From positions 13,777,628-13,841,627 of the forward strand of contig NC_087075.1 of the NCBI RefSeq assembly GCF_026151205.1: a stretch of DNA of 64,000 nucleotides, written 5' to 3'. Both the position numbers and the translations under genes were made by a program. The notes beneath the pieces were generated by a model, which was not told the origin of the DNA, did not search any database, and saw only the letters and a list, made by a program, of their open reading frames with translations. The DNA is from Bolinopsis microptera (Eukaryota; Ctenophora; Tentaculata; Lobata; Bolinopsidae). This document shows, piece after piece, positions 50,001 to 61,824 of this stretch (positions within the stretch are counted from its first letter, which is position 1; the number at the start of each line of letters is the position of its first letter).

Positions 50001-53000
50001 GTCACGAGGGACTATGATGACGTCACTTACCCTGAGTCTAGAGATAGCACCGGGGTTAAGGAGTGTTGGTGTTATGTCACGTACTGGTCCCTCAATCTTG
50101 TCACCGAACACGAAACAGCATCTGGACAGTGTGGAGGTTAGATGATCGGCCAACAATTATAACATTACCCCCCCCCCCCCTCCCCCTGATTTTTCCGATT
50201 TTTCCGACCTCACAAAATGTACAAAATTATAATAATAATATAATGATTGAATAATATAATCTTTAGATATATAAATAATAAATATTATTTAGACTATAAA
50301 ATAACCTGTTAACATTAGGACAGAGCATTGTGACTAGCTTCGTGAGATGACTGAGGACATCCCACTTAACTTGAGCTCCTGTTTCACAACTGAAGGCTGC
50401 AGCGTAACTGTACGTCCTCCCGTCACCCTGGACAGTGGAGAAGGTTAATTGATTAATTAATTAGTGAATTAGTTAATTAATTAACTGATTAACTGTATGT
50501 TCTCCCCAGCTGATAAGTTAGGATTTACCTGTACCCCCACAGTTCTGACGGGCAGTAACACTGGGTATATTCTAGGATTTACCTGGACCCCCACAGTTCT
50601 GACGGGCAGTAACACTGGGTATATTCTAGGATTTACCTGGACCCCCACAGTTCTGACGGGCAGTAACACTGGGTATATTCTAGGATTTACCTGGACCCCC
50701 ACAGTTCTGACGGGCAGTAACACTGGGTATATTCTAGGATTTACCTGGACCCCCACAGTTCTGACGGGCAGTAACACTGGGTATATTCTAGGATTTACCT
50801 GTACCCCCACAGTTCTGACGGGCAGTAACACTGGGTATATTCTAGGATTTACCTGTACCCCCACAGTTCTGACGGGCAGTAACACTGGGTATATTCTAGG
50901 ATTTACCTGGACCCCCACAGTTCTGACGGGCAGTAACACTGGGTATATTCTAGGATTTACCTGGACCCCCACAGTTCTGACGGGCAGTAACACTGGGTAT
51001 ATTCTAGGATTTACCTGGACCCCCACAGTTCTGACGGGCAGTAACACTGGGTATATTCTAGGATTTACCTGTACCCCCACAGTTCTGACGGGCAGTAACA
51101 CTGGGTATATTCTAGGATTTACCTGGACCCCCACAGTTCTGACGGGCAGTAACACTGGGTATATTCTAGGATTTACCTGGACCCCCACAGTTCTGACGGG
51201 CAGTAACACTGGGTATATTCTAGGATTTACCTGGACCCCCACAGTTCTGACGGGCAGTAACACTGGGTATATTCTAGGATTTACCTGGACCCCCACAGTT
51301 CTGACGGGCAGTAACACTGGGTATATTCTAGGATTTACCTGGACCCCCACAGTTCTGACGGGCAGTAACACTGGGTATATTCTAGGATTTACCTGTACCC
51401 CCACAGTTCTGACGGGCAGTAACACTGGGTATATTCTAGGATTTACCTGTACCCCCACAGTTCTGACGGGCAGTAACACTGGGTATATTCTAGGATTTAC
51501 CTGGACCCCCACAGTTCTGACGGGCAGTAACACTGGGTATATTCTAGGATTTACCTGTACCCCCACAGTTCTGACGGGCAGTAACACTGGGTATATTCTA
51601 GGATTTACCTGGACCCCCACAGTCCTGACGGGCAGTAACACTGGGTATATTCTAGAATTTACCTGTACCCCCACAGTTCTGACGGGCAGTAACACTGGGT
51701 ATATTCTAGGATGGTCCTTTAAACTGATCAGGAATTCCCTCTTAGCGTCCGTCAGCTGGGCCTCTAAGCTATTTAACATCTGAGATTGCTGAGGAGAGAA
51801 AAAGGTGTTTCTGTTATTAATTGGTTAATAAAAAAGAGAGAAAATTTGTCATACCTATATTTGTAAAAGCAAAAGTATGCCTTGTTTGAATCTTCCCCCA
51901 TAAAATAACTATAATATTTATTTTAAATGGAAGTTCATTAAATGACTATCCTTCATGAAAACAGAAAACAGAAAACAAAAACAAAAACAAAAAACAGAAA
52001 ACAGAAACAGAAAACAGAAAACAGAAAACAGAAAACAGAAACCAACAGTGGTTCGAAGTCGATGATAGGAGCAGATAAGGTTGAGACGGTTGTTAAAGTC
52101 GTTATAATTCTCCAAATACCAAGGGTAAAGGTCCAACTGACATATTATCCTGGGACCCAAACCTGGACCTGACAAGTTTTTAATAGTTAATATAGTTAAT
52201 ATAGTTAATATAGTTAATATAGTTAATATAGTTAATATAGTTAATATAGTTAATATAGTTAATATAGTTAATATAGTTAATATAGTTAATATAGTTAATA
52301 TAGTTAATATAGTTAATATAATAGTTAATATAGTTAATATAGTTAATATAGTTAATATAGTTAATATATAGTTAATATAGTTAATATAGTTAATATAGTT
52401 AATATAGTTAATATAGTTAAGGGGACATACACCAAAAGCTTTTTTGCCCTGGCCCTGCTGTTAACGTCATATTAAGAAAGTATACATAAAAACAATAAGA
52501 TTTGATACATTAAAAATTATTTTTGAGGACCCGCACTTTCGAAAAAATTATTATTTTCTTTTTCGAAAATTTTGGAAATTTTGAGAAGTCTGTCACTGTA
52601 ATACCGATATTTCGGTCATCTTAAAAGTCTTTTGGCTGTTTTTGTTACTGAAGATTACTTACAATCCGTACAAGAAATCCACGAAAGGATTATATAATTG
52701 AACAATATATGACGAAGTTACAGACCAAACAAGGTCGAAAAATAAAAATTGAAATTTTTGTAAAAATCAAAGTTGTATATTTTACCATTCACCCAGGTCA
52801 TAAGATATCGCTTCAAAAATTCTTGTGAGTGTAGCTGATGATCATATACAACTTTGTGGAACAGGATTTCTCTCAATTTTGAGTTTTAAGGTATGAAATG
52901 TGGCCTCAAACGACTTAGTAAAATTCATCGTAAAAAGGGCCAAACATGGCAGATTTAAGGATTAAAATGCCTATAACTCACAAAGTATCAGTTTTTTTGA

Positions 53001-56986: not shown

Positions 56987-58793
56987 ATGGTATCAATAAA
57001 CTTGACAAGATGGGACATAGTTGGAATACTACTGCTAACTACAAATATATGTCTACTCTACAGTTATCAACCTGTTTCAATCATCACACCCGAGTTAATG
57101 AAACCGAACTCTAATTTAACTACAGCCGATATTTTAGCGGTTAACAGAACCCGTGAAAAATATTTCATTGTGTTCTTAATACCGTCACACCCGCAACGTT
57201 TTAACGTGAGGGATGCTATTCGTCGAACATGGATGAACGTTAATAGATGGAATAACTTAACCTCGATCGATGAACAATACAAGAGAATCAAGGTAATGTT
57301 CTTGTTCGGCTCCTACGCTGATAGCGGTGATTTTGACCAGGAGTTTTACGACGAGCTTAAAGAACACGACGATATGTACATGATATCCAATCTTAGAGAA
57401 CACAGGACCGCTCTAAAATACAAGGTACCTTAGTAGAGGAAATCAAGAGAGCAGGATACCTTAATTCCCAAAAATTTGGGCGACAAAAAATTTGAGCGGG
57501 CCTCTCGCCCAAATTTTTTGCAGACCAAATTTATAGCATAAATCTTTTCCGTCTGCTAAATTTGTTGCTAACCAAACTTTAGGCATTTGGCCCTGAAATT
57601 GTAGGTTTACAACCTACCAGGACGCGCGCCGAGTATATGGAACAGATATTTTAGTTTTACGAGTATCACCCGTTAACCCTGAAATCTATAGAAAGATGGC
57701 TTTTTTCATATCCAAGTGAAATAATATTTAAAATTTTAGTTTTCTAATCTGTCATTAATGGCTTGACCAATTAAATGTTAAAAAGGATTGAAAGCAAAAT
57801 GACTGGAATAATAAGGAATAATAATGAACTAAGGGCAAGGCAAATATTTAACTGAAATTTTAGTGGAAAATCGTTCATTTTTCGGTCGCCCAAATGAGTT
57901 CAAATTTTCTGCCCAAATTTTTCGGGCTCAAATAAATTGTGCTCAATATAATGGCACACAAATTTTTGGGAACTAAGGTATTAAGAAACCCCTTCTCGCA
58001 GTTTCTTAATTTTATGCCCTCTCTTAATTACGGTCACGGGTATGGTTTGGGTTTCCTAATTTTATGCTTACTAATTTTATGCATACTAATTATTTGATTT
58101 ATTAATAATTTGTACCAAGGTACTCTGGGGCACCAAGCAGGCGCTCCACCACTACGACTTTGACTACATCGTCAAAACGGACGACGACATCGTCGTCAAC
58201 CTGCCCGTCCTGATCACAGACCTGATAGCTCTACCACGTGACCGCTACTACACCGGCAACTGTAACATGAAGTACGGAGACTTCAATGGTTACCCTAAAT
58301 GGAAGTACTGCTCCGGAGGAGGATACGTGTTTTCACGTGATGTGGCCAGCAAGTTTCAGGAGTTACCTAGCTCTGTTCACCAGGTACCTTTCAGACCTAC
58401 TGCATTTCGACTTTCCCGTACAGTATTTAAACTATAATTGTTGAAAGTTTCATGACTGAAGATCTACCAGAATGGTTTCATGCGAAGTTCAATAGAATAA
58501 GCTAATTCTTAATGGTGCTGAATATCAAACTTTTTTTACCCAGCTGTGTTCACCAGGTACCCTTCAGACCGGAGGACGCGTACACGGGGTATCTGGTAAA
58601 CAGACTGAGGGTGCTGCTGGGGTACAAGGTCCAAATTGTGCCTAATCCGAAACTTAAAGTTTATGGTTATAAGTGTGGGCCTTTTGTGGGTTGGTTTTAC
58701 CATTCTTATAGCACGGTTAAGAAACACGAGGTACTGTACAAGAAGATAAGGTCAGATGTGTGGGTGCCCTGCAGTGAGCCCAATGGTAAATGA
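56987..58793 (+). CDS. Beta-1,3-galactosyltransferase-like (GT31), 3 exons
   Basis: Join 56987..57424, 58120..58383, 58557..58793; 312 aa. A type II membrane anchor (IVGILLLTTNICLLYSYQ) is followed by a lumenal domain with IPSHPQRFNVRDAIRRTW (family motif R..IR.TW), VMFLFG, FDYIVKTDDDIVVN (metal-binding DDD), CSGGGYVFSRDVA and PEDAYTG (family EDV..G). It acts in the Golgi, adding galactose or GlcNAc in beta-1,3 linkage; the substrate is unknown. Both introns start GTAC after AG and end before GTAC. Intron 2 holds a copied GPCR fragment. Start chosen at the ATG before the anchor, 340 bp from the divergent GMP synthase exon. An inverted broken copy of exon 1 lies at 62505-62745. Confidence 0.9.
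57459..57978. mobile_element. 520-bp MITE in galactosyltransferase intron 1
   Basis: Ends CCTTAATTCCCAAAAATTTG and CAAATTTTTGGGAACTAAGG are imperfect inverses, flanked by TA on both sides. It carries a nested 77-bp element (57600-57676). Confidence 0.7.
57600..57676 (+). mobile_element. 77-bp member of the TGTAGGTTTA family
   Basis: Flanked by CCCTGAAAT at 57591-57599 and 57677-57685. It starts TGTAGGTTTACAACCTACCA and ends CGAGTATCACCCGTTAA. It is shorter than the 22496-22608 copy because the GTTGGACTCGTCGACGG part is missing. Confidence 0.8.
58384..58556 (+). other. Intron 2 of the galactosyltransferase, formed from a GPCR gene patch and a 29-bp duplication
   Basis: The 29-bp words at 58369-58397 and 58542-58570 (AGCT.TGTTCACCAGGTACC...CAGACC) differ at two bases. 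Between them is a 144-bp insert; its first 130 bp (58398-58527) match 61591-61720 of the neighbouring GPCR with 8 mismatches by hand count, same strand. Donor CACCAG|GTACC and acceptor CACCAG|GTACC come from the two copies. Splicing restores ELPSSVHQ-VPFRPEDAY. Without splicing an in-frame TAA follows. Confidence 0.88.
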
Positions 58794-58917: not shown

Positions 58918-59770
58918 TAGGAGGAGTATGAGGAGGAGAAGTAGGAGGAGGAGTAGGAGGAGAAGTAGGAGGAAGAGTAGGAGGAGAAGTAGGAGGAGGA
59001 GTAGGAGGAGAAGTAGTAGGAGGAGTAGGAGGAGGAGTAGGATGAGAAGTAGGAGGAGTAGGAGAAGTAGGAGGAGGAGTAGGAGGAGGAGTAGGAGGAG
59101 GAGTAGGAGGAGGAGTAGGAGAAGTAGGAGGAGGAGTAGGAGGAGAAGTAGGAGGAGGAGTAGGAGGAGAAGTAGGAGGAGTAGGAGGAGGAGTAGGAGG
59201 AGGAGAAGTAGGAGGAGGAGTAGGAGTAGGACTAGGAGGAGAAGAAGGAGGAGTAGGAGGAGGAGGAGAAGAAGGAAGAGTATGAGGAGGAGTAGGAGTA
59301 GGACTAGGACTAGGAAGAGAAAGAGGGGAAGGGGAAGGGGAAAGGGGAGCTCGAGGAGGAAGGAGGGGTAGGAGGGGAGGAGGGGAGAGGAGGAGTAGGA
59401 TGAGAAGTAGGAGGAGGAGTAGGAGGAGAAGTAGGAGGAGAAGTAGGAGGAGGAGTAGGAGGAGAAGTAGGAGGAGGAGTAGGAGTAGGACTAGGAGGCG
59501 AAGGAGGGGAAGGGGAAGGGGAAAGGGGAGCTCGAGGAGGAAGGAGGGGTAGGAGGGGAGAGGAGGAGTAGGAGGAGAAGTAGGAGGAGAAGTAGGAGGA
59601 GAAGTAGGAGGAGGAGTAGGAGGAGAAGTAGGAGGAGTAGGAGTAGGACTAGGAGGCGAAGGAGGGGAAGGGGAAGGGGAAAGGGGAGCTGGAGGAGGAA
59701 GGAGGGGTAGGAGGAGGAGGAGCTGGAGGATGCTGGAGGGGAGAGGAGAGGGAAGGAAAACTAAAGTTAA
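58918..59770. repeat. Purine-rich (AGGAGGAGT) minisatellite
   Basis: About 850 bp almost free of C, built from AGGAGG, AGAAGT and AGGAGTAGG words with higher-order repeats (for example GGGGAAGGGGAAAGGGGAGC three times). The Arg/Ser-rich frame at 58928-59371 arises from the repeat. It could form triplex (H-DNA). Confidence 0.95.
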
Positions 59771-60384: not shown

Positions 60385-61824
60385 ATGACCATTTCAAGTA
60401 ACTATTCGGATATCAGATTCGGGATAGAGAGCAATGCAGAAAGATATTCCTGGGCTGCCTATTTGGTTTTTTGTCAAGTCTAATTGGAGATACTCTGATC
60501 CTGTTTGCATCCTTCCAGAAGGACGCCTTGTAGAGCATATAATTTCATTTCTTAATTTTAATTCTAATATTTTATGTTTTATTCCCGGACGGCTTCAAAT
60601 AAACTCATACTAATTTCACAAAGCATTGCCTACAAGTTTCAACACTTCAAGTTCACACCTATTAGTAATACCTCCCTTACGAATTCATTCTCAGAAACCT
60701 TAAGACTAAGTACCTACCTTCACCTTTCACCGTCCTAACACTATCTTAACATCAGCCAATCACAATTGAGAAACACGACTCACATGACACTACTTTCACC
60801 TCCATAGCCGTCCGTGGCTACGATTGTAAAATAAGTCTGTCTGACCCGTTTTGAGAGATACGAATGAACTTGTGTTTAGTTCCCATATTCTAAAAAACCT
60901 TTGCTGACTTTACCTTTCAAGAAGTCAAACTAATATAACGAGTATCACTTTGTATTAGACACCTAAAAAAGTACTTGAACTAGTCCTCAAGATCCCGGTA
61001 TTACACCAACCTCTACAGCCTTCAAAGTCAACAAATTCATACTGACTGTTATTCAACACATTGCAGCTTCTGATCTCATTTCGACTATCTGTACACCCTT
61101 CTCTGGGGCAGTCTCCTTGCTAGCCAACTCGTGGGTCCTTGGAAAAACACTTTGCTATGCTCGGGTATATGTCGGCAACTACGCTTACCTTGTTGGCATG
61201 TCCCTCATCGCAGTTCTCACTACAAGCAAGTTCCTTCTACTCAGATATCCTCTCCGAGCAGTAAGTTGGTCAACAAAAAGAGCTCATCAAGTTTGCAGCT
61301 TCATCTGGGCTTTCAACCTTATCTTACCAATACTTTTCTCCGCTGTAGACAAGGATGATGTTGACTTCGAGTACATAATCTACAACTGTCAATACGGGTA
61401 TAACTCTGATATTTGGAACAAAATATTGCCCTTAACTGGATTTTTTTCTGCTTTACTTCCAAACATAATTATCGTAGGAACAACAGTTCCTACACTGATA
61501 TACCCAGCTGATGCAAGGATATCTGCTAGACGTGTCCAAGGAAGTGTTCCATGGCAAGGAGCCCTCACTGTAGTCCTCACTGCTGTCATCTACTGCATTT
61601 CAACTTTCCCGTACAGCATTTATACTATAATTGTTGAAAGTTTCATGACTGAAGATCCACCAGAATGGTTTCATGAGAAGTTAAAAAGAATAAGCTATTT
61701 CTTAATGGTGCTGAATATCATGTCAAACTTTTATATCTACACTATGACGATAAAGACTTTCCGCAGATTTCTTCTCTCGAAACTATTCTCTGTCGTTCCC
61801 AGCACTGTTAGTTCTTTTGCTTAG
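60385..61824 (+). pseudogene. Class A GPCR, paralogue of 8683-9711, disrupted
   Basis: The N-terminus from ATG 60385 (NYSDIRFGIESNAERY) matches the intact GPCR. A 1-base shift in the T run at about 60470 is needed to continue into LSSLIGDTLILFASFQKDA. The frame then stops in an insertion (60530-61017) and resumes at FKVNKFILTVIQHIAASDL. From 61117 to 61824 the frame is open through TM3-TM7 (KFLLLRYPLRA, FPYSIYTI, SNFYIYTMT) to the stop. Either a pseudogene, or a gene with an intron plus an assembly error in the homopolymer. It is the source, or sister, of the patch in the galactosyltransferase intron. Confidence 0.8.
60530..61017. mobile_element. 488-bp insertion in the GPCR with short inverted ends
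   Basis: GCCTT flanks both sides (60525-60529, 61018-61022). The ends are TGTAGAG and CTCTACA. It also begins GT and ends AG, so it could be read as an intron, but removing it at those sites leaves the frame shifted by one relative to the paralogue. Confidence 0.6.

Follow-up and report, generated by a model that had tools for sequence, protein, structure and literature searches.

The locus examined here raises the question of how a galactosyltransferase gene (galT) came by its putative second intron, most of which resembles the coding sequence of a neighbouring GPCR gene and which lies between two copies of a short exon segment. The window, by which we mean the whole 64,000-nt stretch of Bolinopsis microptera DNA that was analysed, lies on the contig labelled C4, and the genome searched for related sequences comprised 264.65 Mb in 232 contigs.

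The galactosyltransferase gene and its copies

The copy of galT in the window (copy A) runs from an ATG at 56987 to the TGA that closes exon 3, in three exons and two putative phase-0 introns (Table 1), and its predicted spliced protein matches the Galactosyl_T domain PF01762 (Pfam, E 4e-21). Exon 1 apparently encodes an N-terminal hydrophobic anchor, as judged by eye. An inverted copy (copy B) lies 157 kb off on the same contig (G000 C4:13990500-13999000), and similarity between the two spans about 39.5 to 63.15 kb of the window, in pieces. The predicted spliced products of 312 aa (copy A) and 311 aa (copy B) both have complete frames, and copy A keeps all of the invariant residues in a family alignment of its spliced protein and 13 database relatives. 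Downstream of copy A lies a polypurine tract of the GGA type, and copy B has two such tracts, of 508 and 1079 nt. A 54-nt tandem array is present at 50519-51712 of the window, and the inverted copy has one too. A third match, at C12:8545500-8552500, is 75% identical to copy B with 683 gap openings and many lengthened homopolymers; it looks like unpolished, error-rich sequence, perhaps a read built into the assembly, and was left out of the copy count.

Table 1. Features of copy A of galT and of the neighbouring GPCR gene (window positions)
Feature	Position	Strand	Remarks
galT exon 1	56987..57424	+	146 codons, open frame; Galactosyl_T domain begins here
Intron 1 (inferred)	57425..58119	+	phase 0; AAG|GTACCT ... 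ACCAAG|GTAC; 695 nt (173 nt in copy B)
Putative MITE-like element forming intron 1	57426..58122	+	ends TACCTTAGTA... / ...GTACCAAGGTA; TA at both ends
Nested TACCTTA.../...AAGGTA element	57457..57980	+	524 nt; in copy A only, missing from copy B
galT exon 2	58120..58383	+	DDD motif, CSGGGY motif; 3' end reads ...PSSVHQ
Direct repeat, copy 1	58363..58397	+	left part exonic, right part intronic; carries 5' splice site CAG|GTACCT
Intron 2 (inferred)	58384..58556	+	173 nt, phase 0; retention would bring in an in-frame stop
Insert copied from GPCR gene	58398..58535	+	138 nt; 94% over 131 nt
CTAAT, candidate branch site	58502..58506	+	T-to-A change, in neither GPCR copy
Direct repeat, copy 2	58536..58570	+	left part intronic, right part exonic; carries 3' splice site CACCAG|GTACCC
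Competing CAG acceptor	58541..58543	+	13 nt upstream of needed acceptor; use shifts frame
galT exon 3	58557..58793	+	VPFRPEDAYTG..., CG...WFYH; stop TGA 58791-58793
Polypurine GGA-type tandem tract	58918..59730	+	about 810 nt; between target and donor
Insertion interrupting GPCR of copy A	60530..61017	+	about 488 nt; gap between aligned blocks; missing from copy B
GPCR remaining open frame (7tm_1, rhodopsin-type)	61117..61824	+	domain match
Donor stretch in GPCR coding sequence	61590..61720	+	131 nt, 94% to 58397-58527

A duplicated target around a copied insert

An earlier sequence-only reading of this DNA had described intron 2 as a 144-bp insert flanked by 29-bp direct repeats. That arrangement stands with other lengths: the repeats measure 35 nt by repeat search (32/35 identical in copy A, 31/35 in copy B) and the insert 138 nt. 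The repeat around the insert is not a product of chance, because the top ungapped direct-repeat score in 58300-58650 was 26, whereas none of 200 dinucleotide shuffles exceeded 12. Across 264 kb, isolated direct repeats gave 29 rows, two of which were galT copies A and B. Each repeat holds one of the two candidate splice sites, both reading CAG|GTACC, so that the AG|GT target is duplicated as that reading had claimed, and excision from CAG|GT to CAG|GT takes out 173 nt and restores the frame. By our reading of the alignments, the left insert junction has one base (C) common to both sides, and the right junction has T residues and about three extra bases, a pattern that either end joining or template switching would leave. 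No inverted repeat was found at the insert ends of intron 2, and the junction sequence shows no poly(A) tail where the insert finishes.

The similarity of some 130 bp of the insert, at about 94%, to GPCR coding sequence downstream was recovered as 131 nt at 94%, and extension of the alignment over a 5-nt gap brings the agreement with the local GPCR to 129/142 columns. At least 151 genome matches to this GPCR were counted, of which 12 loci were fetched and aligned with the insert, a comparison with paralogues that had been proposed as a check: the two local GPCR copies agreed in 129/142 columns and the ten other loci over 19-46 columns only. A whole-genome DNA search with the insert returned no GPCR match beyond the local ones; what it matched was copies A and B, each of the two local GPCRs, and the error-rich C12 sequence. 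The donor is thus the local GPCR gene, about 3 kb downstream on the same strand, because the other ten loci match briefly and the genome search shows no other GPCR; on the same evidence, a different GPCR gene as donor is unsupported.

The GPCR gene is itself broken in both copies, by the insertion of about 488 nt in copy A and by a frame shift in copy B. The blocks flanking the insertion in copy A overlap by 5 nt in copy B, which suggests a target duplication. The receptor family is large, the matches listed being mostly single open frames without stops, and it is apparently intron-poor.

Uninterrupted paralogues and relatives

Searching the genome with the joined exon 2-exon 3 protein gave at least 17 matches, made up of two pieces each for copies A and B and 13 other loci. 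The junction is crossed in one open frame, with no stops inside, at all 13 of these listed paralogous loci, the weakest of which (E 4.7e-4) ends 14 residues past it; their unbroken frame bears out the claim that cutting at the repeats restores the coding frame. The restored junction, PSSVHQ|VPFRPEDAYTG, is also continuous in 13/13 of the database relatives aligned, out of 31 found, all of them predicted open frames, among which intron-bearing genes would tend to be missed. Three paralogues read as DNA are continuous across both intron junctions, and in a family search 18/21 matches lay in open frames of at least 282 aa, with A and B outside the 21. A 30-row tree, built from A and B, three of the paralogues, and 25/31 relatives (six shorter relatives were left out), grouped A and B with P0001-P0003, which are uninterrupted, at 99/97. 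Intron 2 is missing from the homologues examined. The galT family appears to stand mostly in unbroken frames in this genome, and the present gene would seem to have acquired its two introns in different ways.

A retrocopy would have revealed splicing and an empty allele the state before the gain; neither was found among the genome matches, which comprised A and B, the C12 sequence, and a single paralogue. A database query for an exon-2 reading frame in the relatives gave no candidate. When DNA of relatives was sought with the exon-1 protein, there were 28 pattern matches in genome_contigs and 1 in viral_contigs, none confirmed; the exon-2/3 protein gave 3 matches in viral_contigs, none confirmed, and the junction pattern gave 0 and 0 in genome_contigs and viral_contigs.

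Age of the insert

Copy B carries the same intron 2 structure at C4:13996144-13996407, with an intron of 176 nt. An assembly artefact is ruled out, since the inverted copy has the same insert with differences of its own; the insert is not brand-new either, because the two introns have diverged by 6/173 substitutions and one gap. Compared with both GPCRs, the A and B inserts have in common five substitutions and the lack of 5 nt, each has two further private substitutions, and they differ further at one place in a T run and by a 3-nt insertion in B. The shared substitutions and 5-nt loss suggest a gain older than the separation of A and B, barring a transfer from one copy to the other by conversion, and the phrase "caught in the act", applied to this intron by the sequence-only reading, is too strong. 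Among the changes common to both inserts is CTATT to CTAAT, which arose in the insert, because TAA would be a stop in the GPCR frame.

Divergence between the copies is uneven. The two copies differ at 7/1387 positions upstream of the gene; within it, exon 1 has 3/438 differences, intron 1, once the nested element is set aside, 4/171, exon 2 1/264, and exon 3 10/237. Beyond the gene, the 3' flank has 6/119 and the part of the GPCR compared 14/788. The rise from 0.5% upstream to about 5% just downstream of galT is as if the 5' part had been converted.

Predicted splicing of intron 2

That intron 2 is removed from galT RNA we infer from the DNA. Retention of the 173-nt segment, whose length in copy A is 3n+2, would lead to an early stop in the protein; the segment has a G+C content of 0.36 compared with 0.52 and 0.47 in the flanking exons, and its donor, GTACCT, matches the intron 1 donor of copy A exactly. 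Weak splice sites are also described for new introns of Drosophila, with degradation of unspliced transcripts suggested as their protection (PMC2809761). CTAAT is a candidate branch site by its likeness to the branch consensus. The choice of acceptor usually favours the first AG, so the CAG upstream of the needed acceptor would compete; it follows a better pyrimidine run, and its use would truncate the protein. Branching at CTAAT (A at 58505) would let scanning favour this upstream CAG, and a branch point at TTTAC (A at 58538) would lie too near that CAG for it to serve.

Little can be drawn from selection. The nine coding changes between the exon 3 copies are 3 synonymous and 6 nonsynonymous (dN 0.034, dS 0.058), divergence in this exon is similar to that in intron 2 and the 3' flank, and constraint is not clearly visible; selection on exon 3 has no power as proof of splicing. 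The open frame also proves little, because a neutral simulation (substitutions only, with 3.3% change assumed before the split and 2% after it) left both copies stop-free in 46% of runs.

These observations bear on the alternative that the same repair event merely disrupted the gene, the segment being retained or mis-spliced and copies A and B either making a truncated protein or being decaying pseudogenes. The competing acceptor, a weak 5' site, the lack of clear constraint on exon 3, and a neighbouring GPCR that is broken in both copies would all fit such a history, yet after the inferred splicing both copies have complete frames, copy A keeps the alignment-invariant residues, and the repeats are placed so that joining CAG|GT to CAG|GT restores the frame exactly. 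We regard disruption as rather unlikely; it overlaps with the two-step alternative discussed below, and the likelihoods given to the several readings are not meant to sum to one.

Intron 1 as a MITE-like element

Intron 1, in which the sequence-only reading had not recognised a MITE-like insertion with a nested second element, is of a different kind. The 173-nt intron 1 of copy B matches C2:11496929-11497028 at 89% and C2:21423654-21423759 at 76%, and both of its ends match C1:24172334-24172458, at 85% and 79%. The right ends read GTAC..AAGGTA or a near variant at 3/3 of these dispersed loci and the left ends TACCTT at two, the left end of the third not being recognised in the piece fetched. 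The element would belong to a MITE-like, TA-target type, a class assigned from its ends, and it shows the dispersed copies, inverted ends, and short target duplication by which introners are recognised. Splicing from AAG|GTAC to AAG|GTAC would restore KYK|VLWG. Two relatives, P0032 and P0033, consist of exon 1 alone (92% and 90% identity, full coverage); both end in KYKVP, the sequence that copy A gives if translation is carried on past exon 1, and intron 1 is thus probably common to the relatives carrying them.

Proposed origin of intron 2

We consider it likely that intron 2 was born in a single DNA repair or replication event in which the GPCR gene served as template, the target was duplicated, and 173 nt came to be spliced out. 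The donor, the duplicated target, the restored frame, the presence in both copies, and the absence from the paralogues examined can be read directly, and from these we infer the repair pathway, the single event, the splicing in RNA, and the benefit of the changes at donor position +6 and at CTAAT. The starting point would have been a staggered break, or a fork that had stalled, in the exon at CACCAG|GTACC of the ancestor from which both copies descend, and repair templated by the GPCR gene about 3 kb downstream would have copied about 138 nt. Synthesis would then have returned into the exon 35 nt behind the exit point, leaving the target duplicated on both sides, such that splicing between the repeats would remove 173 nt and give back the ancestral protein. 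Later changes, namely C to T at donor +6 and the new CTAAT, may have improved splicing, and the polypurine tract that separates target from donor could, as speculation, have set off the event by stalling a fork. Fill-in at staggered breaks is described as a source of tandem duplications in mouse cells (PMC8355091), and work on Daphnia has led to the proposal that introns can be gained through break repair (PMC4202315).

A fuller version of this proposal holds that the intron was complete at birth through one template switch, which supplied its body from the GPCR and its splice sites from the 35-nt duplication, and was later improved; that the same gene also gained a MITE intron at a similar AG|GTAC; and that fork stalling at the polypurine tract may have triggered the switch. 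Taken as a whole, we hold this version tentatively, as having a little less than an even chance.

The event may instead have been two, a 35-bp tandem duplication of the AGGT target coming first and the GPCR patch entering the duplicate junction later. The small tandem duplications that fill-in commonly produces (PMC8355091, in the text available) would supply the first step, and one step and two are inseparable by sequence; against this, a single event accounts for everything, and a 35-bp duplication, not being a multiple of three, would by itself have shifted the frame. We judge two steps improbable. A coding-sequence insert flanked by a direct repeat could also recall a LINE-type machinery that retrotransposed part of a GPCR RNA and left a 35-bp target-site duplication, but what was inserted is an internal GPCR piece lacking poly(A), and the donor is found on the same strand at a distance of 3 kb. 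Both points favour local copying, and we hold this origin to be very improbable. A mobile introner-type element, as the MITE-like intron 1 of the same gene might suggest, is the least credible source of intron 2, which has no dispersed copies beyond the local and C12 matches given above and a 35-nt duplication that exceeds the 3-9 bp given for introners with target duplications in the available text of PMC9860276. One-event repair templated by the GPCR gene is the reading that we carry into the comparison below.

Comparison with known intron gains and significance

The published cases nearest to intron 2 were compared through the portions of each source that were available. The new introns of Daphnia (PMC4202315; reviewed in PMC3443670) likewise have direct repeats at their splice boundaries, and splicing restores the coding sequence; their exon-side repeats, however, are 4-12 bp compared with the 35 nt of galT intron 2, and few of their sources have been traced (one mitochondrial case from earlier work, one rRNA gene, and three weak matches to other species), whereas the source here is a nuclear coding gene 3 kb away (PMC4202315). 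The evidence cited in the 2012 review was of mitochondrial, not nuclear, similarity (PMC3443670). In Dictyostelium, a new intron was copied from the coding 3' end and UTR of another gene, so that its body too is partly nuclear coding sequence; no boundary direct repeats are described for it and the authors assigned no mechanism, whereas galT intron 2 combines a target duplication with a local donor (PMC4683709). The tandem genomic duplication (AGGT) model likewise draws both splice sites from two copies of an AGGT exon segment, but there the intron body is a duplicated segment of the host gene, and here it is GPCR-derived and foreign to the gene (PMC3443670). Introners resemble intron 1 in their inverted ends, TA target, and splice signals that are part element and part target, and the inverted ends and TA target are not seen in intron 2 (PMC9860276).

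Identified sources are few in the same body of work. A nematode study gave no source for 168 new introns and called source sequences a molecular smoking gun (PMC9169325), sources were given for 2/98 putative gains (40 + 58) in Dictyostelium (PMC4683709), and a human intron-gain paper supports intronization, with no comparable case in its available text (PMC12124190). Among the published new introns compared, those of Daphnia and Drosophila have repeats but no known nuclear coding donor, and that of Dictyostelium has a coding donor but no repeats. No case with both boundary repeats and a coding donor was found in the open-access literature, a search outside of which most subscription journals lie.

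In sum, the donor, the target, the duplication, and the uninterrupted paralogues of galT intron 2 are all readable, in two diverged copies. If the intron is spliced, a single commonplace accident of nuclear DNA repair would be enough to produce a functional intron at one stroke, and a nearby coding donor together with a long AGGT-containing duplication would be a signature that can be searched for in other genomes.
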